Below, in pieces: positions 1,679-16,109 of a stretch of DNA of 64,000 nucleotides. The notes beneath the pieces were generated by a model, which was not told where the DNA came from, searched no databases, and saw nothing but the letters and a program-made list of their open reading frames with translations. Origin of the DNA: Chryseobacterium camelliae (GTDB lineage: Bacteria > Bacteroidota > Bacteroidia > Flavobacteriales > Weeksellaceae); contig NZ_CP022986.1 in assembly GCF_002770595.1 (NCBI RefSeq), positions 3,224,001 to 3,288,000 of the forward strand. The letters run 5' to 3'. The position numbers and the translations under genes were made by a program. Every line of letters begins with the position of its first letter. Positions within the stretch are counted from its first letter, which is position 1.

Positions 1679-4294
1679 TTAAATGGAAAGCTTCGGTTTC
1701 ATAAGTTTGGCCACAGTAGCTGTCCAGCCTGTCTGATGGGAAGCACCTACACCGCGGCCGTTGTCACCATGGAAATATTCAAAGAACATAATATAGTCTT
1801 TGAAATGTTCATCATAATTGAACTTCGTATTGCCTCCGTTAAAAGGGCGCTGTCCGTTACCATCTTTCAGGAATATTGAACACAGCCTGTTGCTGATGTC
1901 CTGCGCTACTTCATCCAGGTCTTTCTGGTCGCCGCTTCCGGTAGGGAGTTCCACTTTCAGGCTGCTGCCGTAATAATAATGGAAACGCTGCAGGCTTTCT
2001 ACAATAAGGAAATTAATCGGGAACCAGATCGGGCCCCTCCAGTTACTATTGCCACCGAACATGCGGCTGTCACTTTCAGCAGGGGTATAATGCACCACAT
2101 TTTCCGTCCCGTGTACCGAAAATATAAAAGGTTTTTCTTCATAGATTTTAGACATGGCCCGGATTCCATAGGTGCTCAGGAATTCCTTTTCATCCAGCAT
2201 GCGGTTCAGTACTTTCGTGAGCCTGTTCTTCCGTAAAATGCTCATCAGATGCTTTCTTCCCTGGCCTTCCTCATCCCAGTGAGAAACAAGCTTCGTCAGT
2301 TCAGGCTTGTTTTTAAGGACCCAATCCATCCTTTCGCGGAAGTTAGGCATGTTTTCGAGTAATTTATGTTCGATGATTTCTACTGCAAACAAAGGAATAA
2401 GCCCTACGATGCTTCGGAGTTTAAGGGAGACACCCTCTCCGTTTCCAAGCTGCAGCACATCATAGAAAAAGCCGTCTTCTTCATTCCAGAGCCCTTTAGT
2501 TCCGTCACCTAAGTTTTCCATAGCTTCAGCGATATAAAGATAATGCTCGAAAAACTTGATGGCCATATCTTCATACACCTTGTAATATTGGGCAAGCTCC
2601 ATGGCAATACGCATCATATTCAGGGCATACATGGCCATCCAGCTTGTTCCGTCAGCCTGCTCTAAGTGTTGTCCGTCTTTAAGGATCATATTACGGTCGA
2701 AAGCCCCGATGTTATCCAGCCCCAGGAATCCGCCGCCGAAAATGTTTTTTCCGTTTTTATCTTTCCGGTTCACCCACCAGGTGAAATTGAGAAGAAGTTT
2801 CTGGAAGACTTTTTCAAGGAACAGCAGGTCAGGTTTTCCGTTTTGCTTTTCATCAATTTTAAAAACCCTGAAGCAGGACCATGCGTGAACGGGAGGATTT
2901 ACATCACTCAGATTCCATTCATAGGCAGGAAGCTGCCCGTTGGGATGCATATACCATTCTTTGGTAAGGAGAAGGAGCTGACCTTTGGCAAATTCAGCAT
3001 CAATCAGGGCATAGGGCACACAGTGAAAGGCAAGGTCCCAGGTCGCATACCAGGGATATTCCCATTTATCAGGCATGGAAATAATGTCCTTGTTGTGGAG
3101 GTGGTTCCATTCTGTATTTCTCACGTAATTGGTAAAATCCCTTGGCGCATCATAATTAGGATCTCCTTTAAGCCATTTACCGACATTATAATGATAAAAC
3201 TGCTTGTTCCAGAGCAGCCCGGCAAAAGCCTGCCGCTGTACATTGCGTTCATCTTCATCGGCTGTATCATGCTGGATCTCCTGGTAGAATTCGTCTGCTT
3301 CAGCCATTCGGGCAGCAAACACTTCGTCAAAATCCCTGAATGGATCGTCCAGCTCTTCAGGAGACAGCCTGAAATCAAATGTTCTGGATCCTCCGGCACT
3401 GATGGTCTCATGCACCAGGAAAGAAGCTTTTGAACCTCTTTTTTCCGGATTTACCGTGGGAGTTTTATGAATGATATAATTATTGATACCGTCTTTATAA
3501 TACGCTTTTTCAGAAGCCGGAACGTCCTGTAGTTTAGGGGTATTGGTTTCATTTTCACAGAAAACACTTTCTGCATTGATGTTTTTGGAATAGATTTTTT
3601 TAATGTCTATACTGTCATGGTGAACGTCAATGCATCCCTCATGAGAAGCGGTCAGCTGGCCTTTGTAATCATTGTATCCCCACTTCCAGTTATTCCTGAA
3701 CCATGCGGTAGGAATGACTATAATGGGAGCATCACGGTCGCTTCTGTTGCATACCGTAACCCGTACCAGGATATCATGATGGTCTGCTTTACAGTATTCG
3801 ATGAAGATGTCAAAATATTCGTCCTGGTCAAAAACTCCCGTGTCAAAAATTTCGTATTCCGGCTGCTTTTTATTTCTCCTGGCATTTTCTGTGAGGATAT
3901 CGTCGTATGGGAATTCATTAATGGGGTATTTGTACACCATTTTCATATAACTGTGCGTAGGCGTATTATCCAGGTAATAGAATATTTCCTTGATATCCTC
4001 GCCATGATTTCCCTGAGGATTGCTCAAACCGAAAAACCGTTCTTTGACCATCTTATCTTTCTTGTTCCAGAAAGAAAGGGCAAAACTTAAAAGCTGCTTG
4101 GTATCCGAAATACCGGCAATGCCTTCTTCGCCCCAGCGGTACGCATAACTTTCGGCATTATTGTGGTTGGCAAAATGCCATGCATTTCCGTTAGGACTAT
4201 AATCTTCCCTTACATTACCCCATTGTCGGTTGCTTACATAAGGTCCCCAGTTTTTCCATTTGCTATCTTCTAATCTTTGTTTTTCAGCAATCAT
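1679..4294 (-). CDS. GH63/MGH1-like glycoside hydrolase
   Basis: An 871-residue protein without a signal peptide, so probably cytoplasmic. It shows the (alpha/alpha)6-barrel hallmarks of the GH63 and mannosylglycerate-hydrolase-like group: WYATWDLAFHC, LPAYEWNLSDVNPPVHAW, NSNWRGPIWFP and, near the end, GASHQTGWTA. The Asp in the first and an acid near the last motif are the likely catalytic pair by analogy with the family. Family members hydrolyse alpha-glucosides or glucosyl/mannosyl-glycerate; the substrate cannot be read from sequence. The gene stands alone with its own promoter-like site upstream and a terminator after it. Several long antisense frames opposite it are shadows. Confidence 0.85.
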   Translation of the reverse strand: MIAEKQRLEDSKWKNWGPYVSNRQWGNVREDYSPNGNAWHFANHNNAESYAYRWGEEGIAGISDTKQLLSFALSFWNKKDKMVKERFFGLSNPQGNHGEDIKEIFYYLDNTPTHSYMKMVYKYPINEFPYDDILTENARRNKKQPEYEIFDTGVFDQDEYFDIFIEYCKADHHDILVRVTVCNRSDRDAPIIVIPTAWFRNNWKWGYNDYKGQLTASHEGCIDVHHDSIDIKKIYSKNINAESVFCENETNTPKLQDVPASEKAYYKDGINNYIIHKTPTVNPEKRGSKASFLVHETISAGGSRTFDFRLSPEELDDPFRDFDEVFAARMAEADEFYQEIQHDTADEDERNVQRQAFAGLLWNKQFYHYNVGKWLKGDPNYDAPRDFTNYVRNTEWNHLHNKDIISMPDKWEYPWYATWDLAFHCVPYALIDAEFAKGQLLLLTKEWYMHPNGQLPAYEWNLSDVNPPVHAWSCFRVFKIDEKQNGKPDLLFLEKVFQKLLLNFTWWVNRKDKNGKNIFGGGFLGLDNIGAFDRNMILKDGQHLEQADGTSWMAMYALNMMRIAMELAQYYKVYEDMAIKFFEHYLYIAEAMENLGDGTKGLWNEEDGFFYDVLQLGNGEGVSLKLRSIVGLIPLFAVEIIEHKLLENMPNFRERMDWVLKNKPELTKLVSHWDEEGQGRKHLMSILRKNRLTKVLNRMLDEKEFLSTYGIRAMSKIYEEKPFIFSVHGTENVVHYTPAESDSRMFGGNSNWRGPIWFPINFLIVESLQRFHYYYGSSLKVELPTGSGDQKDLDEVAQDISNRLCSIFLKDGNGQRPFNGGNTKFNYDEHFKDYIMFFEYFHGDNGRGVGASHQTGWTATVAKLMKPKLSI

Positions 4295-4311
4295 ATGATC
4301 ATTTTACATTA

Positions 4312-4342
4312 CGAAGTTAGTTTTTTTGAAAAATAATTCCAA
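4312..4342 (-). promoter_or_regulatory. Probable promoter of the GH63-like gene
   Basis: On the minus strand TTG (4340-4342), a 20-nt spacer and TAACTTCG (4312-4319). The -7 element has one mismatch to TAnnTTTG. It ends 17 nt before the ATG at 4294. Confidence 0.45.
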
Positions 4343-4423
4343 TTGTTTCTATCTGAATAAATAGTTAACATTCCGTTAAGATTGCTTATAATAAAGCTTT
4401 TTTTGTGAAGAAAAAATATTTTT

Positions 4424-4453
4424 TTGAAAGTATGGAATAAAAACCTATCTTTG
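4424..4453 (+). promoter_or_regulatory. Promoter of the methionine operon
   Basis: TTG at 4424-4426, exactly 19 nt, then TATCTTTG at 4446-4453: a full match to the Bacteroidota -33/-7 promoter. Transcription would start near 4460, just before the SAM riboswitch. Confidence 0.8.
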
Positions 4454-4480
4454 CACTACGTTCATTTAAATATTGAAAAT

Positions 4481-4584
4481 GTTATCAAGAAAGGCTGAGG
4501 GACTAGACCCTGTGATGCCTTAGCAACCCTTTGCGCAAGCAAAGAAGGTGCTACGTTCTACCAAAATGATTTTGGACAGATAAC
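4481..4584 (+). ncRNA. SAM-I (S-box) riboswitch
   Basis: The P1 stem GTTATC (4481-4486) pairs with GATAAC (4579-4584). Inside are the conserved S-box segments in order: GAGGGACTAGACCC, ATGCCTTAGCAACC, a short CTTTGCGCAAGCAAAG hairpin, and AAGGTGCTACGTTCTACC. S-box RNAs bind S-adenosylmethionine and lower expression of methionine genes. The region down to the start codon (4585-4645) has only short hairpins (for example GCCA/TGGC at about 4600-4615) and no strong T-tract terminator. The mode of control (transcription or translation) is therefore open. Both its position and the seven genes after it fit methionine control. Confidence 0.93.
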
Positions 4585-4645
4585 TTACTGAAGTTCTTTC
4601 AGCCATTTCCTGTGGCATTTTCAATGATATTAAACTTTAATAGAA

Positions 4646-5590
4646 TTGAAATCGGAACTACCACATATTAACCTTACGTATCAGACCTGTTCCCAAAAGG
4701 AATATACTATTCCGTTAAGCTATCAGCTTTTCGGAAAAGGCTTGTTTTCAGCACCTGTCATTTTAGTCAACCATGCCCTTACCGGCAATTCAAACGTTTC
4801 AGGTAACAGCGGATGGTGGAAACAGCTGATCGGTGAAAATAAGATGATTGATACCAATACCTGTACTGTACTCTGTTTCAACATTCCCGGGAACGGATAT
4901 GATGGTTTTGAAGTGGAAAATTATGAAGACTTTACTCCATCAGATATAGCACGGATCTTCCTGCACGGTCTTGATGCCCTGAACATTGACCGCCTGCATG
5001 CCATTATCGGAGGCTCGCTGGGAGGAGGGATCGGCTGGGAAATGCTGGTGCTCAAGCCTCAGCTTACAGATATCTTCATACCTATTGCCTGCGATTACAG
5101 GACGCACGACTGGCTCCACGCACAATGCCTGGTGCAGAAATTCTTATTAAGCCAGGATGACCAGCCTCTACAGAAGGCACGAATCCATGCTATGCTGTGT
5201 TACAGGACACCCGAATCGTTAAATGACAGATTCAGGAACCGTTTTAATGAGGAGAAAGAACGTTTAGAATCCGAAGATTGGCTGCTTTACCATGGGAGTG
5301 CCCTTAACGAAAGGTTTAGTTTACCAGCGTATAAACTCATGAACCATCTCCTGATGAATCTCAATGCTGATGACGCCGGAATCAGGGAAATTACAGCAGA
5401 AATCCATTTGATTGCTGTGGATACCGATTTGTTTTTTCCTGCATCAGAAATACGAATGTGCTTTGAAAAACTTAAGGACCATAATCAAAAAGTCTGTTAC
5501 CATGAGATACGGTCCATTCACGGACATGATGCCTTCCTGATGGAATACCAACAATTACAAACGATCATTAAAAATATTTTGGAGCGATGA
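4646..5590 (+). CDS. metX: Homoserine O-acetyltransferase (MetX), TTG start
   Basis: A 314-residue alpha/beta-hydrolase-fold enzyme that activates homoserine by acyl transfer, the committing step of methionine synthesis. The nucleophile elbow GGSLGGG puts the serine at 124. The acid is in VDTDLFFP (Asp261) and the base in HGHDAF (His294). It is somewhat shorter than typical MetX of about 350-380 residues. A stop codon (4631-4633) lies in frame just upstream and no ATG falls near, so TTG at 4646 is the only reasonable start. The ATG at 4624 is in another frame and ends at once. Whether the acyl donor is acetyl- or succinyl-CoA cannot be told by eye. Its stop overlaps the next start (ATGA). Confidence 0.9.
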   Translation: MKSELPHINLTYQTCSQKEYTIPLSYQLFGKGLFSAPVILVNHALTGNSNVSGNSGWWKQLIGENKMIDTNTCTVLCFNIPGNGYDGFEVENYEDFTPSDIARIFLHGLDALNIDRLHAIIGGSLGGGIGWEMLVLKPQLTDIFIPIACDYRTHDWLHAQCLVQKFLLSQDDQPLQKARIHAMLCYRTPESLNDRFRNRFNEEKERLESEDWLLYHGSALNERFSLPAYKLMNHLLMNLNADDAGIREITAEIHLIAVDTDLFFPASEIRMCFEKLKDHNQKVCYHEIRSIHGHDAFLMEYQQLQTIIKNILER

Positions 5591-7131
5591 AGAATTATAA
5601 TGCCAACGAAATAAAATTTCTTAAAAACAGGTCTATCATTAAATTTGAAGGAGAAGATTTTCTGGGGGAAATCGGGATAGACGGACGCATCTTTAAAGCG
5701 CTGACCCTGGCGCGCATCAGTGTAGGGGTCATTTCGCAGCAGGCTATTGAGAACGGCCTGTCCATTCTGGTTCACGAAAATGATTCTGAAAAAGCAGTCA
5801 ATTGTCTGATTGATGAATTTGAACCCGAAAGGAAATCCGGAAAAGTTTCTCAGATTTACAGCATCAATAATGTGTCTGTACTCGGTTTTGTAACGGAGGA
5901 TTTTAATAAAGTACTGTCCGAACTGGCCAGGAATAACGTATTTCCCCTACTGCTCAACCAGAATGCAGCGGAGAAGAGGGTGAATATTGTCGTGACTTCT
6001 TCACAGGATGAAAAGGCAAAGAATATTATTGAATCCGAAATTTCAAAAAAACCGAAAACAGTCCATCTGGCCATTATTGGCCATGGAAATGTGGGAAAGA
6101 CCCTGATACAGCAGGTACTTGAATCATCAGAGGAGATCAGAAGGCGAAAAAAGATCGATCTGAAAGTGGTGGCCGTAGCCAATTCAAGAAAAATAGCCTT
6201 CAATAAAAAAGGATTCGGGCATGACTGGAATGATGAGGTGCTTACTGCCCGGCATCCCTCTGATATTAAAGAGCTGATCAGTTTCTCTAAAGAAAATCAG
6301 CTCGAAAACCTTATCGTTGTAGATAACACCGCCAGCAAAGAATTTGTAAAGCATTATCATGTACTGGCGGAAAATGGCTTCGACCTGGTTTCGTCCAATA
6401 AGATTTTCAATACTCTGCCGATCGAAGAGTACAGGAAGCTGAGGTACACCCTGAATAAAAATAACAGGCGCTACCTGTACGAAACCAATGTAGGTGCAGG
6501 TCTGCCGCTCATCGATACCATTAAGCTGCTTCACCTTTCAGGAGAGAACATCACCAGGATCAAAGGTGTTTTTTCGGGAACGCTGAGCTATGTCTTCAAT
6601 AATTTTTCTTTGCGCAATGATCCGTTTTCTACCATCATCAGTGAAGCATTGGAGAAAGGATATACAGAACCGGATCCCAGAGAAGACCTTTCCGGGAATG
6701 ATGTAGCCAGAAAACTGCTGATCCTGGCAAGAGAATTAGACCTCATCAACGAATTTAATGACATTAAGATCCAGAATCTCGTTCCTGATGCCCTACTTTC
6801 GGTTTCAAAAGAAGAATTCCTCTCCAGGCTGGCAGAGCTGGATGACCAATACCGGAAAATTAAAGAAAATCAGGAGGAAGGCTATGTACTGAGGTATGTA
6901 GGGGACCTTCACGGCGACCTTCAGAAAGACAAGGGAGAGCTGGATGTACAATTGATTTCAGTACCGGCTACTTCCGCCTTAGGACAGCTGAAAGGATCGG
7001 ATTCCATTTTTGAAATCTATACAGAGAGCTACGGAGAAAATCCTATTGTCATCATGGGTGCCGGTGCCGGTGCACAGGTTACGGCAAGAGGGGTATTCGG
7101 AGATATCTTGAGAGTAAGTGAAACGAAATAA
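5587..7131 (+). CDS. Homoserine dehydrogenase with N-terminal ACT domains
   Basis: A 514-residue protein. Residues about 10-155 match the two ACT (regulatory) domains found in the middle of bifunctional aspartokinase/homoserine dehydrogenase, including ARISVGVISQ. Residues about 160-512 are the dehydrogenase: nucleotide-binding AIIGHGNVGKTL, the NVGAGLPLIDT segment, GVFSGTLSYVFN and the DPREDLSGNDVARK catalytic stretch. The aspartokinase catalytic domain is missing altogether, so this is not full ThrA. It reduces aspartate semialdehyde to homoserine, the substrate of MetX, whose gene it overlaps by 4 nt. The ACT domains suggest feedback control by an amino acid (inference). Confidence 0.9.
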   Translation: MKNYNANEIKFLKNRSIIKFEGEDFLGEIGIDGRIFKALTLARISVGVISQQAIENGLSILVHENDSEKAVNCLIDEFEPERKSGKVSQIYSINNVSVLGFVTEDFNKVLSELARNNVFPLLLNQNAAEKRVNIVVTSSQDEKAKNIIESEISKKPKTVHLAIIGHGNVGKTLIQQVLESSEEIRRRKKIDLKVVAVANSRKIAFNKKGFGHDWNDEVLTARHPSDIKELISFSKENQLENLIVVDNTASKEFVKHYHVLAENGFDLVSSNKIFNTLPIEEYRKLRYTLNKNNRRYLYETNVGAGLPLIDTIKLLHLSGENITRIKGVFSGTLSYVFNNFSLRNDPFSTIISEALEKGYTEPDPREDLSGNDVARKLLILARELDLINEFNDIKIQNLVPDALLSVSKEEFLSRLAELDDQYRKIKENQEEGYVLRYVGDLHGDLQKDKGELDVQLISVPATSALGQLKGSDSIFEIYTESYGENPIVIMGAGAGAQVTARGVFGDILRVSETK

Positions 7132-7165
7132 ATAATAATAATGTAACAATATAGCAGTGTAGCAG

Positions 7166-7242
7166 TTTACCAATGATTTTGAATGTCATGCTCAGCTTCT
7201 TAGCATTTCATTGTTCCATTAATAAACTGTTCCATTGGTAAA
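7166..7242. repeat. Inverted repeat in the hsd-metZ spacer
   Basis: TTTACCAATG (7166-7175) and CATTGGTAAA (7233-7242) are exact inverted copies 57 nt apart. The 125-nt spacer holding them is built from short related words (GTAACAAT, GTAGCAG, GTTCCATT). It may be a decayed intergenic element; no function is evident. Confidence 0.5.
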
Positions 7243-7256
7243 TTAAAAAATATATT

Positions 7257-8441
7257 ATGGAAAATTTTGAAACCTTTGCCATAAGAACCCAAACGGAAAG
7301 GACCCAGTTTGATGAACATTCAACGCCGCTTTTTTTAACGTCAAGCTTTGTGTTTGAAGATGCGGAAGATATGCGGGCCAGTTTTGCAGAAGAAAAGCCT
7401 AAGAACCTCTACAGCCGGTTTTCAAACCCGAATGTTTCGGAATTTACCGGGAAGATCGCTAAAATGGAAGGCGCAGAAGCCGGCTATGCTTTTGCGACAG
7501 GAATGGCTGCTATTTATTCAACCTTTGCCGCTTTGCTGAATGCGGGCGACCATATCGTAAGCTGCCAGTCGGTATTTGGTTCCACCCACACCCTGTTCAC
7601 CAAGTATTTTCCAAAGTGGAATATTGAAACTACGTATTTCAAAGCAGATGATGCACAGAACGTAGAACAGTATATTCAGCCCAATACCAAAGTGCTGTAT
7701 CTTGAAACCCCTACCAATCCTGCTATTGAAGTGCTGGACCTGGAGTTTTTCGGGCAGATTGCCAAAAAGCATCATCTGATTTTTATCGTGGATAACTGTT
7801 TTGCTACCCCTTACCTCCAACAGCCGGTAAAATACGGAGCAGATATCGTAGTGCATTCCGCTACCAAGCTGATTGACGGCCAGGGCCGGGTGTTAGGCGG
7901 TGTAGCCGTTGGCAGGGAAGACCTGATCCGTGAAATTTATCTATTTGCAAGAAACACGGGTCCCGCAATGTCTCCTTTTAATGCATGGGTACTGTCCAAA
8001 AGCCTGGAAACTCTGGCCATCCGTGTTGAAAAACATTGCGAAAATGCTTTAAAAGTGGCCGAATTCCTGGAAGGCCATCCGAATGTTGAACTGGTAAAAT
8101 ATCCGTTCCTGCCATCCCATCCGGGCTATGAAACGGCAAAAAAGCAGATGAAGCTGGGAGGGAATATTGTTGCCTTTGAAATCAAAGGCGGCATCGAAGG
8201 CGGAAGGAACTTTTTAAATAAGATCAAAATGTGCTCGCTTTCCGCCAATCTAGGGGACACCAGAACCATTGTAACCCATCCGGCGTCTACAACGCATTCA
8301 AAATTAACGGAGGAAGAAAGAAATGAAGTCGGAATTACAGCGGGTTTAGTGCGGTGCTCTGTGGGGCTGGAACACGTGGATGACATTATTGATGATCTGA
8401 AACAGGCGTTGGATTTATTCATCAATAGGAACGGGCTTTAG
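7257..8441 (+). CDS. metZ: O-acyl-homoserine sulfhydrylase (MetZ-like), PLP enzyme
   Basis: A 394-residue member of the Cys/Met-metabolism PLP enzymes. The cofactor lysine is Lys204 in HSATKLIDGQGR. The IDGQGR form is typical of O-succinylhomoserine sulfhydrylase (MetZ) rather than cystathionine enzymes. Other family marks are NLYSRFSNPN, ETPTNP, DNCFATPYLQQP and THPASTTHSKL. It would join activated homoserine with sulfide to give homocysteine, which MetH then methylates. It follows the dehydrogenase by 125 nt in the same operon. MetX/MetZ/MetY naming depends on acyl donor, which sequence alone does not settle. Confidence 0.88.
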   Translation: MENFETFAIRTQTERTQFDEHSTPLFLTSSFVFEDAEDMRASFAEEKPKNLYSRFSNPNVSEFTGKIAKMEGAEAGYAFATGMAAIYSTFAALLNAGDHIVSCQSVFGSTHTLFTKYFPKWNIETTYFKADDAQNVEQYIQPNTKVLYLETPTNPAIEVLDLEFFGQIAKKHHLIFIVDNCFATPYLQQPVKYGADIVVHSATKLIDGQGRVLGGVAVGREDLIREIYLFARNTGPAMSPFNAWVLSKSLETLAIRVEKHCENALKVAEFLEGHPNVELVKYPFLPSHPGYETAKKQMKLGGNIVAFEIKGGIEGGRNFLNKIKMCSLSANLGDTRTIVTHPASTTHSKLTEEERNEVGITAGLVRCSVGLEHVDDIIDDLKQALDLFINRNGL

Positions 8442-8449
8442 CCCGTTTT
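8430..8449 (+). terminator. Palindromic hairpin over the metZ stop codon
   Basis: AACGGGCT (8430-8437), TT, AGCCCGTT (8440-8447) form a perfect 8-bp stem ending in TTTT. The stop codon TAG lies inside it. A second half-copy (GGCTTTAGCC) follows about 28 nt later. It may be an attenuating terminator or mRNA-stabilising hairpin within the operon, or a repeated intergenic palindrome. Confidence 0.45.
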
Positions 8450-8488
8450 AAAATCAACAAATCAAAATGGCTTTAGCCTAAACATATA

Positions 8489-9499
8489 ATGAAAAACTCA
8501 CAACAACTATACAAAGCGTTATCCGAAAGAATTTTAATTCTCGACGGTGCGATGGGAACGATGCTGCAGCGGTATAAATTTGAGGAAGAAGATTACCGGG
8601 GCGAGCGGTTCAGGGACTGGGAACATCCGGTAAAGGGCAATAATGACCTCCTTTCACTTACCCAGCCGCATGCTATAGAAGAGGTTCATAAAAAATACCT
8701 GGAAGCCGGTGCCGATATCATTGAGACCAATACATTTTCCGGGACCACGATTGCTATGGCGGATTACCATATGGAAGATCTGGTGTATGAGCTGAATTAT
8801 GAATCAGCTAAAATAGCCAGGAAAGCCTGTGATGAATATACAGCCCGAAATCCTGAAAAGCCGAGATTCGTGGCAGGATCCATCGGTCCTACCAACAGGA
8901 CGGCAAGCTTGAGCCCGGATGTCAATGATCCCGGATACCGGGCCATTACTTTTGAAGAACTCAGGGTTGCCTACAAACAACAATGTGAAGCGCTGCTGGA
9001 CGGCGGGTCAGATATCCTGCTGGTTGAAACCATTTTCGATACTCTGAATGCCAAGGCTGCACTTTTTGCGATTGATGAAATTCAGGACGAAAGGAGCCTG
9101 CGTATTCCGATCATGGTTTCCGGAACGATTACCGATGCATCAGGAAGGACATTGAGCGGACAGACAGCAGAAGCATTCCTGATCTCTGTCTCCCACCTTA
9201 ACCTCTTAAGTGTAGGCTTTAACTGCGCTTTGGGAGCCAACCAGCTTACCCCGTATCTCGAAACCCTGGCCCATAATTCAGAATTTTATGTTTCAGCATA
9301 CCCGAATGCAGGTTTGCCGAATGCTTTCGGGCAGTACGATGAATCGCCCGAATTCATGGCAGAGCAGATCCGGGAATATGTGGAGAAAGGACTGATCAAT
9401 ATCATCGGCGGCTGTTGTGGTACCACACCCGACCACATTCATGCCATCGCTGAAATGGTAAAGGCATATGCCCCGAGAAAAATAGGCCGTTTTGTATGA
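8489..9499 (+). CDS. metH: Methionine synthase, N-terminal half (homocysteine-binding)
   Basis: A 336-residue protein equal to the first domain of B12-dependent MetH. It starts with [10 protein letters not shown], and the zinc ligands are Cys246 (FNCALGA) and the pair Cys309-Cys310 ([10 protein letters not shown]). These match in spacing the three cysteines of Escherichia coli MetH. It binds and activates homocysteine but has no folate, cobalamin or reactivation domain. Those are in the separate gene at 10661. The two proteins must work together. A short NAxx-type tail ([10 protein letters not shown]) ends the protein close to the domain boundary, as expected for a clean split. Confidence 0.92.
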
Positions 9500-9561
9500 T
9501 TTTTGTTGGATGGAGTTAGCAATCAAACTATTAATAACCGCTAATTACATCAAACAATATT

Positions 9562-10653
9562 ATGGAAAAGCCTATTTACTTAAAAGATTCAGAGGATGCA
9601 AAATTGTTTAGTGAATTAAGAACAAGAGTGAACAAAAGAGTAGAATCCATTCCCGGAAACAGGGACCTGTATATTCAGTTTAAAGCCATAATCCTGCCTT
9701 TGGTTTATTTTGGGCTGTATGCATTAGCGCTGTTGAATGCGGAAAGGCCATGGGTGTATATCCTGAGCTTTGTCCTGATGGGAATTTCTTTGGTATTGAT
9801 TTACCTGAATCTTATTCATGAAGCGGCACATAATAATATTTTTAAAAGCAAAAAGCTGAATTCAGCAGTATTGCAGATCTTTGATTTTGTGGGAGCCAAT
9901 TCGTACATCTGGAAAAAGCGGCATATTTCCAGCCATCATGCCTACCCGAACGTAGACGGTTGGGATACGGATATTGAGCAGAGCGGGTTGCTTTTAATTG
10001 TCCCATGGATTAAGGCAAAAGGAATTCAGAAATATCAGCATAGGTTCTTCTTCCTGGTATATCCGCTATACCTGTTCAACTGGATGTTCATCAGGGATTT
10101 CAGGGATTTTTTCGATAATGAAAGGGTTATACTGAAGACTCAGGGATCCATTCCGGTAAAGGAAAAAGTGAAAATGATTGCCTGTAAGCTGTTTTACTTT
10201 TTCTATCAGATCGCAGTTCCGGTCCTGTTCTTTAAGGTATCCATAGGCCTGGCTTTGGGAGCATGGTTTTTACAGGTAATTGCAGCAAGTATTTTTGCTT
10301 TGTTTGTATTACTGCCGCTTCATCCGCTGCCGGATAATGCCTTTCCGAAGCTGGATGAAAAGAACGGGCTGCCATTCAGCTGGCTGAGGCATCAGCTGGA
10401 AGTGACCAATGACCTGTCCAATAACAACTGGTTCATCAGGAATGTTCTGGGCAACTTCAACTTCCATGTGGCCCACCATCTGTTCCCGAATTACAGTTAT
10501 ATGTACTATAACGAAATCACGGAAGAAATAGAAGCTTTTTCAAAACAGCACGGTCTGGCTTACAAAAGATTTCCGATTACCACTGCACTGAGCAAGCATG
10601 TAGACTTGCTGAAGCAGAATGCGAATAACGCATATTATATTTTAGAAGAATAA
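9562..10653 (+). CDS. Membrane fatty-acid desaturase (acyl-lipid/front-end type)
   Basis: A 363-residue membrane protein with the three histidine boxes of di-iron desaturases: HEAAH (86-90), HISSHH (121-126) and HVAHH (302-306). Hydrophobic segments lie at about 42-60, 66-85, 158-175 and 205-250. The third box begins with His rather than Gln, and there is no fused cytochrome b5 domain. The family inserts double bonds in acyl chains in the inner membrane. It sits between the two halves of methionine synthase, 62 nt after the first and 7 nt before the second, in the same orientation. It is probably transcribed under the SAM riboswitch although no methionine role is known for it. Confidence 0.88.
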
Positions 10654-10660
10654 TATATTA

Positions 10661-13321
10661 ATGAAATATTTAAGATTATCAGGGCTTGAGCCTTTGATTA
10701 TTACACCGGAAAGTAATTTTATCAACGTTGGCGAAAGAACCAATGTTGCCGGTTCAAAAAAATTCTTACGATTAATAAAAGAAGAAAAATTTGCTGAAGC
10801 GCTGGATATTGCCAGACATCAGGTAGAAGGAGGGGCACAGATCCTGGATGTCAATTTTGATGACGGGCTCATCGATGGCAAAGCCTCCATGGTGAGATTT
10901 TTAAATTTAATAGCTTCCGAACCGGATATTGCCCGGATCCCGATTATGGTTGATTCGTCAAAATGGGAAATCCTGGAAGCGGGTCTGCAGGTGGCACAGG
11001 GAAAATGTGTGGTCAATTCCATCAGCCTGAAAGGAGGTGAGGAGGAATTTATCAAACAGGCAAAAGCCATCAAAAGATACGGAGCGGCAGTTATTGTTAT
11101 GGCATTTGATGAAGCAGGCCAGGCCGACACCTATGAACGCAGGATAGAAATTTCAAAACGATCCTATGATCTCCTTGTCAACCAGTTGAATTTTCCGGCA
11201 GAGGATATTATTTTCGATCTGAATATCTTCCCGGTGGCTACCGGAATGGATGAGCACCGCAGAAATGCCATCGATTTTATTGAAGCCACAAGATGGGTAC
11301 GCCAAAATCTTCCGTATGCATCGGTAAGCGGAGGTGTCAGCAATGTATCCTTTTCATTCCGCGGAAATGATACCGTGAGAGAAGCCATGCACTCCGTATT
11401 CCTGTACCATGCTATTCAGGCAGGAATGAATATGGGAATTGTAAATCCAGCGATGCTGGAAGTCTATGATGAGATCAATAAAGAACTTCTTGAGCTGGTA
11501 GAAGATGTGATTCTGGATAAACGTGAGGATGCTACTGAGCGCTTACTGGATTATTCGGAAAAACATAAATCAGTAAAGAAGGAAAAAGCCGAAGATTTAG
11601 AATGGCGGAATTATCCTCTGCAGGAAAGAATTACCCATGCACTGGTAAAAGGAATCGACCGCTTTATAGAAGAGGATGTAGAAGAAGCAAGGCAACAGGC
11701 GGCAAAGCCTTTACATGTGATCGAAATAAATCTGATGACAGGAATGGGCGTTGTGGGAGACCTTTTCGGAAGCGGGAAAATGTTTTTGCCCCAGGTAGTG
11801 AAATCCGCGCGGGTAATGAAAAAAGCGGTTGCCTATTTACAGCCTTATATTGAAGCGGAAAAAGACGGGACGAAGCCGGCTAACGGAAAAATCCTGATGG
11901 CAACAGTAAAGGGGGATGTTCACGACATCGGAAAAAATATTGTGAGCGTAGTATTAGGTTGCAACAATTATGAGATTGTAGATCTTGGGGTGATGGTTCC
12001 GGCAGAAAAAATTATCCAGGCCGCTATTGAACATCAGGTGGACGTGATCGGGTTAAGTGGCCTGATTACGCCAAGCCTTGATGAAATGGTTTATATTGCC
12101 TCTGAGCTGGAGCGCCAGAATCTTAATTTCCCATTACTGATCGGTGGGGCTACCACTTCAAAGGCACATACTGCCGTAAAAATAGACCTGAAATATAAAA
12201 ATGCTGTCGTACACGTAAACGATGCTTCCCGGGCCGTGAATGTAGTAAGCTCATTACTGGGGGACAGGAACAAGGAATATGTAGCAGATTTAAAAAATGA
12301 CTACTCGGATTTCCGGGAGAAATTCCTGAACCGTCAGGTAGATAAAGACTATGTTTCCATTGAAGAAGCCAGGGAAAATAAATTTAAGATCGATTGGGAG
12401 CATGAGGAGATTTTTACTCCGAATCAATTGGGAATTCAGGTTTTTGAAAATCAGGATTTACGTGAGTTGCTGCCTTTTATAGACTGGTCACCCTTCTTCA
12501 GAAGCTGGGACCTGCATGGAAAATACCCGGCGATTTTGGAAGATGAGGTAGTAGGAACTCAGGCTACAGAACTCTTTAAAGATGCACAGGTGATCCTGAA
12601 AAGGATTCTGGATGAAAAACTGCTCACCGCAAAAGCCATTTTCGGAATCTTTAAAGCCAATGCCAATGAAACGGATGATATCCTGATTTTTGATGAAAAC
12701 CGGAAAGGACAGGCTAAATTCTTAACCTTGAGGCAGCAGGCCCAGCGTTCCAAAGGCAAGGATTACCTGGCACTGAGTGATTTTATCGCGCCGCAGAGCA
12801 CCGGGAAAACTGATTATGTAGGAGCCTTTTGTGTGACTACAGGCTTCGGGACCGACGAATTGGCAGGAGAATATGAAAAAGCCAACGACGATTACAATGC
12901 CATTATGGTAAAAGCTCTGGCCGACCGTTTTGCAGAAGCGTACGCAGAATTTCTACATAAAAAAGTCAGGACCGAATACTGGGGCTACGCCAATCAGGAA
13001 ACCCTAAGCAATGAAGAACTGATCGCCGAAAAATATAAAGGGATACGCCCCGCACCGGGGTACCCTGCCTGCCCTGACCATTTGGAAAAAAATACCATCT
13101 GGGACCTTTTAAAAGTGGAAGAGCAGATCGGAGTATACCTGACAGAAAGCCTGGCGATGTTCCCCACCGCTTCCGTTTCAGGATATTATTTCGGAAGCCC
13201 GCATGCTAAATATTTCGGTTTAGGGAAAATTACTGAAGACCAGCTCAGGGATTATGCGAAACGCAGAGGATGCAGCCTGCAGGAAGCCAGGAAATGGCTG
13301 TCACCTAATCTGGCAGATTAA
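10661..13321 (+). CDS. metH: Methionine synthase, C-terminal half (folate, B12, SAM-reactivation)
   Basis: An 886-residue protein with the other domains of MetH in order. First is the pterin-binding barrel ([15 protein letters not shown] near residue 20 to about 300), then the cobalamin cap (about 310-400). The B12 domain follows with DVHDIGKN, where His421 is the lower cobalt ligand, then [11 protein letters not shown] and [11 protein letters not shown]. Last is the activation domain (about 560-880) with [14 protein letters not shown] and [13 protein letters not shown]. It transfers the methyl group from methyl-tetrahydrofolate through cobalamin to homocysteine held by the partner at 8489. 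The start lies 7 nt after the desaturase stop. Confidence 0.95.
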
Positions 13322-13424
13322 GCCCGTAAAAATTAAACAAATGATATTATACAATTCTAAAACAGATTGTTACCTCACATTATAACTATAATTAAAAGTT
13401 GCAGCATGTTGCTCGCCATTTAAA

Positions 13425-14381
13425 ATGAAGATCACAGACCACATAAAAAATGCAAACGGAAACACACTGTTCTCCCTTGAAGTTGTTCCGCCACAAAAGG
13501 GAATCGGGATTGAGGACCTGTACCGGAATATCGACCCGCTCATGGAATTCAAGCCTCCTTTTATTGATGTCACCACTTCCCGTGAAGAATACATTTACCT
13601 CGACAAAGGGAATGGCCTGATGGAGCGCAGGATCACCAGGATGCGTCCCGGAACCTTAGGGATCTGTGCAGCCATCCAGCATAAATATAATGTTGATACC
13701 GTTCCTCATCTGCTGTGTGGAGGATTTACCAAAGAAGAAACAGAATACCTCCTGGTAGACTGTATGTACCTGGGAATTGATAATGTTATGGCTTTACGCG
13801 GCGATGCCATGAAGGGACATCAGTATTTTGAACCTACCAAAGGAGGGCATTCCAGCGCGATGGATCTGGTACATCAGATCAATGATCTCGGAAGAGGAAA
13901 ATTCCTGCATGACGATGAAGCCTGTGACGAGCATAATAAATTCTGCATCGGGGTAGCCGGGTATCCTGAAAAGCATATGGAAGCCCCTTCAATGAATTAC
14001 GACCTTAAATGGCTGAAGCAGAAAGTGGATGCGGGAGCCGATTATATTGTTACCCAGATGTTTTTCGACAATAAAAAATTCATCGAATTCGTCAATAAAG
14101 CCAGGGAAATGGGGATTACTGTTCCGATTATTCCGGGAATAAAACCGATTGCTACCAAAAAACACCTGAAAGTTCTGCCACAGGTATTTAAAATAGACCT
14201 GCCGGAAGAACTGATTACCGAAGTGGAAAATGCAAAGAACAATGAAGCCGTAAAGCAAATCGGGATCGAATGGGCAATAAGCCAGTGCAGGGAACTGCTG
14301 AACTATGGTGTTCCCGTACTGCATTTCTATTCAATGGGGAAAAGCGACAACATTAAAAATGTGGCCGCAGAATTGTTTTAA
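13425..14381 (+). CDS. metF: Methylenetetrahydrofolate reductase (MetF)
   Basis: A 318-residue FAD enzyme that reduces 5,10-methylene- to 5-methyl-tetrahydrofolate, the methyl donor for MetH. Family marks are SLEVVPPQKG near the start, PHLLCGG, NVMALRGD (residues about 121-128), GVAGYPEKH and DYIVTQMFFDN. It is last in the operon, 103 nt after metH, and is followed by a strong terminator. The gap before it has no good promoter that I can see. Confidence 0.95.
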   Translation: MKITDHIKNANGNTLFSLEVVPPQKGIGIEDLYRNIDPLMEFKPPFIDVTTSREEYIYLDKGNGLMERRITRMRPGTLGICAAIQHKYNVDTVPHLLCGGFTKEETEYLLVDCMYLGIDNVMALRGDAMKGHQYFEPTKGGHSSAMDLVHQINDLGRGKFLHDDEACDEHNKFCIGVAGYPEKHMEAPSMNYDLKWLKQKVDAGADYIVTQMFFDNKKFIEFVNKAREMGITVPIIPGIKPIATKKHLKVLPQVFKIDLPEELITEVENAKNNEAVKQIGIEWAISQCRELLNYGVPVLHFYSMGKSDNIKNVAAELF

Positions 14382-14402
14382 TAGTAAGTGGATCAAATAA
14401 AA

Positions 14403-14440
14403 AGGCTCCGGATCAGATGATCCGGAGCCTTGTATTTTTA
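14403..14440. terminator. Bidirectional terminator after metF
   Basis: A perfect 13-bp stem (14403-14415 with 14418-14430) and 2-nt loop. T-rich sequence follows on the plus strand and TTTTATTT on the minus strand. It ends both the met operon and the convergent gene at 14438. Confidence 0.9.
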
Positions 14441-14941
14441 TAGCGGCAGTTCAGGGGATTTGTAATCATTCTGGTGCCTGATCAGCGTGTCAAAGACACT
14501 CTTGGTGGTCGGCTTGGAAGGATCTGTATTGAAAATAAACATTCCGCTTTCTATGTTGAAGAAATATTTTTGCTGGCCGTCCGAGATTGAAAACCACTTG
14601 AGAAGGCCATTCACCAGATTAACGTCCTCCCAGATAATTGACGATTGGTCCATGGGAAAAGTGTAGGGATTCTGATGCAGGGTATCTACGAATTTGATAT
14701 CCCGCCCGTCCAGATACAGCACTCCGCTTCCCTGAAATGCCTTAATCTTGAAAAACTGGTTTTGGGTATTGCCCATATTATAGCGTACCAGGGCATAATG
14801 TTCCGGAGGACCTAATTCAGCCAGCAGGGCCTGCTGTTTTTTCTTCCTGCTTCTGGCTGCCAGAAAGGCAATAAGCAGGACCAAACCGGGAATACAAAGG
14901 ATAAAAAACAGTAAAAAAATCAATAAGAGTATCAGTTCCAT
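14438..14941 (-). CDS. Hypothetical single-pass membrane protein
   Basis: About 167 residues. Residues 1-26 form one strong membrane helix (ELILLLIFLLFF onward), followed by a basic RSRKKKQQ stretch, so the remainder probably faces the cytoplasm. The rest is a beta-rich soluble domain with no motif I recognise. I chose the ATG at 14941 because it falls 10 nt after the upstream stop and begins directly with the membrane helix. An ATG at 14977 would add 12 residues and overlap the upstream gene. It is probably co-transcribed with the acetyltransferase-like gene before it. Function unknown. Confidence 0.7.
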   Translation of the reverse strand: MELILLLIFLLFFILCIPGLVLLIAFLAARSRKKKQQALLAELGPPEHYALVRYNMGNTQNQFFKIKAFQGSGVLYLDGRDIKFVDTLHQNPYTFPMDQSSIIWEDVNLVNGLLKWFSISDGQQKYFFNIESGMFIFNTDPSKPTTKSVFDTLIRHQNDYKSPELPL

Positions 14942-14951
14942 AATATATTTT

Positions 14952-16109
14952 TTAATTGAGTTCAGGATGACGTTCAAATTCTTTTTCCCTATCGAATAAA
15001 TACCGGTAGGTAGCCAGTTTTCTTGTGACAGTGGTATCCAGGTTTTCAGCGATCCTGATCATTTTAGGGTTGAAATCACCGATCCACTGCAGCTCCGTAA
15101 CCTTAAAGTCGGTATGCTTTCTCAGATGTTGTGTTCCTTCCCAGATCATATAGCCCTCAATTCCTTTTTTCTGCCACTCAGGCACTACACCAAAAACCAG
15201 GCCTACCATCTTTTCGTTTTTCCTGAATTTTTTCACCCACATGAATTTCAGCTTCTCCCATAGGCCGAATTTGCCGTTGAGGTATTTAAACCACTGGTTA
15301 AGGTCTGGGATATTCATCCACATGGCAATGGGCTTTTCGCCTTCATAGACAAACCACGAAATATGCTCGTTGATGATGGGCTTCATGGTCTTAAACATCT
15401 TCAGGACCTTAGCTTCTTCCAGCTGTTTCCCTTCACCGTGGGCTGCCCAGGCTTTATTGTAAACTTCCGTGAAATCCCTGGCAAATTTTTCGAGGTTGTT
15501 CTTTTTCATGGGCAGGGCAGAGATGGCAGGATTTCTCTTATGCTTGGCATGCATGAGGGTGAAAACCCTGGAAACTTCTCCGAAAACCGGCCTTGAAAAA
15601 CAGAGCTGCTCAAAATAGATTTTGAATCCGTAATTCTCAAACAGCGTTTTGTAGTAGGGCTGGTTGTAGTTCATTCCGTATAAAGGTTCTATAAAACCTT
15701 CTGTAAGCAGGCCCCAGAACTTATCCCTTTCGCCAAAGTTAATCGGGCCGTCCATGGCTTCCATACCATGCTCTTGCAGCCAGTTCCTGCAATAATCGAA
15801 AATAAAATCGGCGGTCTGCTGGTCATTGATACAGTCGAAGAAGCCTATTCCTCCCGTAGGCTGCTTCTGCTGATACTGCTGGTTGATGAAAACGGCCGTC
15901 TTGCCTACCGTTTCGTGCTTTTTATTTTTGAAGAGGAAACGGGCACATAAACCGTCTTTGAAAAATTTATTCTTTTCCGGGTTAAAAATATCTTCAATGT
16001 CTCTGTCCAGAGGACGGATATAATTGCTGTCATTTTGATAAAGCCTGGCCGGAAATTCCAGGAATTCCCTCTTTTGGTTTTCATTTTGTACCTCTTCAAC
16101 AATAATCAT
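14952..16109 (-). CDS. GNAT-like N-acetyltransferase-fold protein
   Basis: A 385-residue cytoplasmic protein. The N-terminal half (VEEVQNENQKREFLEFP, LDRDIEDIFNPEKN, DGPINFGERDKFWGLL) and the C-terminal GLVFGVVPEWQKKGIEGYM resemble the acetyl-CoA binding loop of GNAT proteins. The wider family is widespread in Bacteroidota and mostly uncharacterised. The substrate is unknown. It lies first in a likely two-gene unit, divergent from folE with 101 nt between the starts. Confidence 0.65.
   Translation of the reverse strand: MIIVEEVQNENQKREFLEFPARLYQNDSNYIRPLDRDIEDIFNPEKNKFFKDGLCARFLFKNKKHETVGKTAVFINQQYQQKQPTGGIGFFDCINDQQTADFIFDYCRNWLQEHGMEAMDGPINFGERDKFWGLLTEGFIEPLYGMNYNQPYYKTLFENYGFKIYFEQLCFSRPVFGEVSRVFTLMHAKHKRNPAISALPMKKNNLEKFARDFTEVYNKAWAAHGEGKQLEEAKVLKMFKTMKPIINEHISWFVYEGEKPIAMWMNIPDLNQWFKYLNGKFGLWEKLKFMWVKKFRKNEKMVGLVFGVVPEWQKKGIEGYMIWEGTQHLRKHTDFKVTELQWIGDFNPKMIRIAENLDTTVTRKLATYRYLFDREKEFERHPELN

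Follow-up and report, generated by a model that had tools for sequence, protein, structure and literature searches.

The stretch of Chryseobacterium camelliae DNA analysed here, 64,000 nucleotides long and referred to as the window, contains a methionine operon in which methionine synthase, MetH, is split and a gene for a putative membrane fatty-acid desaturase, here called DES, stands between its two parts. The arrangement is real, it is old, and it is widespread in one genus; what it means for the regulation of the desaturase by S-adenosylmethionine (SAM) is a separate matter, to which the genes themselves have to be brought in first.

The operon and its products

The coordinates, spacers and domain content of the original prediction agree with our open reading frame calls and Pfam searches, and the features of the operon are as follows:

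4423..4453, + strand: what we take to be a Bacteroidetes-type promoter, TTTG-N19-TATCTTTG, the sole strict + strand match within 4200-14500
4479..4586, + strand: SAM-I riboswitch aptamer (RF00162, 81.6 bits, cut-off 44.4)
4602..4651, + strand: expression platform with hairpins 4602-4616 and 4619-4651, the second enclosing the TTG start of metX
4646..5590, + strand: metX-like homoserine acyltransferase (the top NCBIfam models are MetX, scoring below their cut-offs)
5587..7131, + strand: homoserine dehydrogenase (hom) with an ACT domain
7257..8441, + strand: metZ, an O-succinylhomoserine sulfhydrylase-like pyridoxal phosphate enzyme (PRK08133.1, 526.8 bits, cut-off 522)
8489..9499, + strand: metHN, the N part of MetH with the zinc/homocysteine methyltransferase domain
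9562..10653, + strand: DES, membrane fatty-acid desaturase with three His boxes (PF00487)
10661..13321, + strand: metHC, the C part of MetH with the folate, B12 and reactivation domains
13425..14381, + strand: metF, methylenetetrahydrofolate reductase (TIGR00676, 309.4 bits, cut-off 293.7)
14402..14431, + strand: strong terminator-like hairpin of 13 pairs after metF, detected on both strands

DES is the fifth gene behind the aptamer, preceded by metX, hom, metZ and metHN, and is separated from metHN by 62 nt and from metHC by 7 nt, the three frames lying on one strand. The homocysteine, folate, B12 and reactivation domains of MetH are all present across the two halves, metHN covering the full S-methyl_trans domain (1-283 of 283) and metHC containing Pterin_bind (1-244 of 244), B12-binding_2 (1-73 of 74), B12-binding (1-94 of 121) and Met_synt_B12 (1-273 of 273; all Pfam), and metHC alone exceeds the cut-off of TIGR02082 (1224.7 bits against 1010.85). 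In our sample of 246 evenly drawn genomes of the family Weeksellaceae metHC is matched in 219, two of which (G015 and G020) reach only about 1e-4, and because the full-length matches lie in open frames of 885-931 aa rather than about 1200 (among the matches listed, and in 49 of 49 genomes of a second search), the cut in metH is probably ancestral in the family, in which split MetH is common. That split MetH is known, as had been claimed, is borne out by Burkholderia phytofirmans, in which the homocysteine domain is likewise apart from the folate/B12/reactivation part, the cut falling identically between the S-methyltransferase domain and the remaining domains (PMC7311316). There the halves occupy the neighbouring locus tags BPHYT_RS02305 and RS02310, whereas in the window the desaturase stands between them, and the MetH of Bacteroides thetaiotaomicron is cut at another place, the reactivation domain (PMC7311316). 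At two loci, L183 (genome G084) and L201, metHC is in two pieces as if broken, for which sequencing error is a possible cause, and at L173 a diverged second copy of the 3' stretch of metHN follows metHN and precedes metHC.

Membrane fatty-acid desaturases have a four-helix membrane fold holding two metal ions, and the family PF00487 also contains hydroxylases. DES scores 108.6 bits against the cut-off of 29.7 of this family (FA_desaturase) and displays what we take to be the three-His-box pattern, H86-x3-H90, H121-x3-HH126 and H302-xx-HH306, with the columns H86, H90, H121, H125, H126, H302, H305 and H306 invariant in nine aligned sequences from six genera, the window included. Family score and His boxes thus liken it to the membrane-bound desaturases of PF00487, but with the desaturase models DesA and DesB of NCBIfam it stays far under cut-off, and no chain was matched at E 1 or better in a PDB sequence search. 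On the basis of family and motifs DES probably desaturates membrane acyl chains. The window genome has one further PF00487 protein (G000:C1:1283025-1283660, 241 aa), and DES is therefore not its sole desaturase-type gene. The notion that DES may be a sulfonolipid or sphingoid desaturase belonging to a sulfur operon remains an idea, the literature searched having shown nothing on DES in the parts available to us. As judged from the ratio of nonsynonymous to synonymous divergence (dN/dS), which is 0.03-0.09 in eight pairs, with dS near saturation in several of them, strong purifying selection acts on the DES protein, which is therefore in use; its ratios are mostly somewhat above those of the two metH genes, which range over 0.014-0.049 in the six pairs having both.

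Distribution, inheritance and loss of DES

Within the family sample, of which 109 genomes belong to the window's genus Chryseobacterium (g1), DES is found in 92 of 246 genomes and 9 of 28 genera, with 78 of the 109 genomes in g1 and 14 of the 137 outside it. These counts apply a presence limit of E 1e-60, beyond which distant homologues fall outside; the totals of 109 and 78 were counted by hand from match lists, and the loci fetched for close reading were chosen, not random. By coordinates, each of the 78 copies in g1 immediately precedes metHC in the same orientation, the one in G236 being broken by a stop. This coordinate test covered the place before metHC; reading of individual loci showed metHN as well. 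Since the metHC match starts 1-8 nt behind the DES stop in 73 of the 78 (216-226 nt in the other five), the 3' end of DES probably doubles as the translation start region of metHC. Outside g1, 8 of the 14 copies occupy the metHC site, in the genera g5, g18, g19, g22 and g23. Among the copies elsewhere, in G086 (L298) DES follows hom behind a SAM riboswitch on a contig of 4965 bases, and those of G081, G099 and G014 adjoin a gene that by eye resembles a universal stress protein. This second site of the DES family, in two other genera, is represented by L295, L296 and L297, where transporter-like genes, again by eye, are further neighbours.

Named genomes gave a similar picture. Of 101 relatives found, 80 loci were kept and 78 of these have the order metHN-DES-metHC, 77 of them within 400 nt and L201 once the second piece of its metHC match is counted; the exceptions are L263, with hom-DES, and L268, without a met gene. 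Beyond the family, in order and phylum samples of 196 and 296 genomes, all DES matches are distant, including those in five genomes from other families of the class in the 296-genome sample. In genus g30 of another family DES-like matches have 34-36% identity, and at the three of six such loci that were read no met gene of the window's set stands beside the DES-like gene. No report of a desaturase between metH halves was found in the literature searched, although one may still be in print.

The question raised in the original prediction, whether a comparison across Weeksellaceae would find the desaturase at this site in many genera or in close relatives only, thereby receives a divided answer, as several genera share the site but DES is carried by a minority outside g1. 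That minority is what speaks for a recent chance insertion confined to close relatives. However, six genera have DES in the same place, and DES diverges in step with MetH: third-position distances of DES and metHC correlate with r 0.911 (4465 pairs from 95 DES-bearing loci), the corresponding values for metHN and metZ against metHC being 0.913 and 0.914. Likewise at L095 (g18) everything from hom to metF, DES included, is 60-66% identical to the window genes, with 66% for DES and 63-64% for MetH. The trees, made with FastTree, have unsure deep branches in the case of DES, and L095 is a long branch. DES behaves as a regular member of the operon over long times, and the scars of loss described below, which show absence to be often secondary, are equally at odds with a late arrival. 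A recent insertion is refuted by these comparative data and we regard it as barely credible.

DES is missing in 31 of the 109 g1 genomes, in all of which metHC is matched. A tree of MetH was built from 123 loci, of which 92 have DES, 31 lack it and 10 are outgroups; on it the presence label changes 17 times, outgroups included, and at least 12 of these changes are forced by the starred branches alone, the tree giving no direction of gain versus loss. A direction is suggested by remnants, since the 3' tail of DES is recognizable in the last 70 nt before metHC at 11 of the 26 DES-less g1 loci examined from the 31 such genomes, and none of 200 shuffles scored as high. The tail-bearing loci stand at no fewer than three places of the tree (L162, L304, L306, L307, L310 and L311; L302, L303 and L305; and L171, with L173 left out of the tree), and absence is therefore often secondary. 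That deletions often spare the tail would be because it holds the translation start region of metHC. At L153 (G236) the DES gene with its internal stop is still in place between the metH halves and looks like a loss in progress.

The converse case, DES without MetH, is found in genus g20, where G020 and G042 keep DES and the metHC match of G020 is only 5.8e-4. In G020 the immediate neighbours of DES are a 384-aa gene, folE and cysS, which correspond to the window genes right of the operon (72%, 94% and 79% identity, respectively) and have the same relative orientation, and in G042 the contig ends within the same neighbour, which borders the operon in the window as a 385-aa gene. Most simply, the met genes would have been deleted from around DES, absence having been shown for metHC, and no other observation argues as strongly that DES is useful in its own right. 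G020 is 99% complete, while G042 (92%) resembles a metagenome-assembled genome and is, like G086 (93%), a weak case. In the window itself two - strand genes without a Pfam family at E 0.001 occupy 14438-16109, past the operon terminator, and in genomes without MetH the larger of them still keeps its place next to folE/cysS and DES.

DES furthermore appears to have moved between genera. Loci L121 (g22) and L140 (g23) are 63-84% identical across most of metZ, metHN, metHC and metF in 200-base windows, but 94-100% identical over a tract that takes in roughly the last 150 nt of metHN, DES and roughly the first 100 nt of metHC, with tapering edges, and they are the single extreme outlier of all pairs, with third-position differences of 0.05 in DES and 0.50 in metHC. 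From this tract of high identity with its short flanks we infer an intergeneric transfer of a DES cassette, for which the conserved ends of the metH genes served as anchors of homologous recombination. Other cargo is found at the same junction: 8 loci have an IS200-like transposase (PF01797) there and 11 have a 23S-IVP protein (PF05635), all on the operon strand; three representatives were assigned by Pfam and the others joined by BLAST, and the count of 11 comes from other readings, as the junction-length survey missed most 23S-IVP frames because metHC starts were extended upstream. In that survey junctions longer than 300 nt were found 53 times in 125 for metHN/metHC (32 of them with DES), 34 times in 124 for metHC/metF, 21 times in 87 for metZ/metHN, and 6 times in 185 for the first two operon junctions, and all 32 DES frames were at metHN/metHC. 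Three operon junctions therefore take up cargo, and metHN/metHC is unremarkable once DES is set aside. By eye, TTGGTAAACTGTTACATTG-type motifs were seen in the hom-metZ spacer of the window (7150-7245) and in the DES-less metHN-metHC spacers of L146, L170, L174, L177-L180 and L309.

Transcription and the reach of the riboswitch

A strict promoter motif stands ahead of the aptamer, at a distance of 120 nt or less, in 8 of 14 loci, where 0.21 would be expected, and before DES in 1 of 33 loci (L082), where 0.34 would be expected, the backgrounds being plain base shuffles. Between the end of metHN and the start of metHC only weak terminator-like sites of 5 pairs occur on the + strand, at 10209 and 10619, and these mean little because the scan overall gave 14 sites against 10.9 expected. 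The patterns thus favour one transcript including DES, and the proposal that the desaturase shares the transcript of the operon is supported at this level, with a single motif in 33 loci before the gene and the 13-pair terminator-like hairpin placed only after metF.

An alternative is that a non-canonical promoter of its own, in metHN or the spacer, serves DES, whose regulation would then be independent, for instance by temperature. Transcription of the DES copies in g20 and at the second site must do without the met promoter, and many g1 loci share a similar leader of about 82-86 nt in front of DES, which holds an A/T-rich block such as TATTATCTTTAA. This block, however, misses the strict motif with its spacing and is absent from the leader in the window, and together with the near lack of strict motifs this makes an independent promoter unlikely.

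A SAM-I aptamer is present in all 13 scanned loci that have met genes, 10 with DES, and in none of five DES loci away from met genes (at the gathering threshold; for L292 also at E 0.1). Behind the aptamer come a 5-pair stem and then a conserved A/U-rich hairpin over the TTG start of metX. This hairpin has 13 predicted pairs in 11 aligned loci, three of them with changes on both sides, and single-sequence folds give z of -2.9 to -4.4 in five sequences, although its covariation term of +0.51 is mildly unfavourable and there are several broken cells. In the window the first arm of hairpin 4619-4651 (CATTTTCAAT) can alternatively pair with ATTGAAAATG at the 5' edge of the aptamer. More generally the arm CATTTTCA is present in 14 of 14 loci and the complementary ATTGAAAATG in 12 of 14, and the order TTGAAAATG ... 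CATTTTCA upstream of metX recurs in 169 of the 175 loci whose sequence reaches far enough, a set that includes many close relatives; in L294, L082 and L298 the start arm is not fitted exactly. The pairing of CATTTTCA with ATTGAAAATG in the window is predicted at -9.1 kcal/mol against -5.1 kcal/mol with the start arm, and the minimum-energy fold of the whole leader uses it and breaks the aptamer. The region 4460-4651 can accordingly be seen as holding three mutually exclusive pairing elements, ATTGAAAATG, CATTTTCA and the metX TTG start region.

These features suggest that the SAM-I switch of this family acts on translation. In the absence of SAM, CATTTTCA would be held by the upstream arm and the metX start left free, and with SAM the aptamer would form and CATTTTCA would cover the start. 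Since the conserved elements behind the aptamer pair with the metX start region, direct control by SAM may end at metX, and if the readout is indeed translational there, the reach of SAM to DES would depend on polarity or mRNA decay, and an effect of SAM on DES expression is doubtful. The claim that the desaturase is under the same SAM riboswitch therefore stands in so far as DES lies downstream of the aptamer in the operon, but direct control may stop four genes short of it. The operon otherwise resembles a SAM-I riboswitch-led met operon (RF00162), with an above-cut-off aptamer upstream of metX-hom-metZ-metH-metF, and differs in the added desaturase and in the apparently translational readout at metX.

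DES as a probable passenger of the methionine operon

Taken together, we consider it reasonably probable that DES is an ancient, exchangeable, useful and dispensable passenger under met-operon transcription, and that a link to SAM is not the reason for its position. DES would have lodged at the junction of two separately translated MetH halves, a place tolerating co-directional inserts, and would be transcribed with the met operon from the promoter ahead of the riboswitch, as the promoter and terminator patterns indicate. It would have been inherited mostly vertically with the operon, with repeated losses and at least one intergeneric cassette move, and SAM level may change its expression indirectly, as a by-product of position.

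Several observations weigh against this. As many as 15 of the 26 DES-less loci examined have no scar and some of them may never have had DES, and L212 (Chryseobacterium sp. Leaf201), which has DES in a group of the MetH tree whose other members lack it, with L165 and L168 beside it, may be a regain. Furthermore, one site in six genera and the majority state in g1 could mean selection for met control, as could the order riboswitch-hom-DES on the short contig of L298, and adjacency alone cannot separate vertical inertia from selection for position.

The corresponding explanation is that the link is selected, the operon placing unsaturation under SAM control such that DES rises when methionine or SAM is short. 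It gains from the conservation of the site in six genera, from the position behind a SAM-I aptamer of all ten scanned DES copies beside met genes, and of the window's, as opposed to none of the five elsewhere, and from the rarity of strict promoter motifs directly before the gene. A partial parallel exists in metagenome DNA, where the desaturase gene ole1 lies behind a B12 riboswitch (PMC2211319); there too a riboswitch tied to one-carbon/B12 metabolism precedes a desaturase, but the riboswitch class is another, the desaturase group is COG1398 and the finds are metagenome fragments (PMC2211319). On the other hand DES is absent from 31 of 109 g1 genomes that keep metHC, scars mark 11 of 26 of the loci without it, it is retained without MetH and has a second genomic site, and the riboswitch seems to act on metX translation. 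Nor is there a full-length cyclopropane synthase match to join SAM and unsaturated lipids: the four PF02353 matches span only about positions 51-177 of 273 and one exceeds the cut-off (31.8 against 27 bits), and a SAM-to-cyclopropane link is not supported by partial matches of this kind. The functional link between SAM and unsaturation that the original prediction had put forward as one of two readings is not supported, given the losses and the retention in g20, and we find a selected link unlikely. The still stronger proposition, that methionine or SAM sets lipid unsaturation in Chryseobacterium and its kin via DES in the SAM-riboswitch operon and that the cassette was shared between genera for that regulation, appears quite improbable.

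With DES seen as a useful but dispensable passenger, the SAM-to-unsaturation link becomes a testable minor hypothesis, and the locus allows membership of an operon to be checked against function, because one and the same gene occurs in the operon, lost with scars, kept without MetH and exchanged as a cassette. It advises caution in inferring function from operon position, and the natural strains with and without DES allow a comparison of their lipids.

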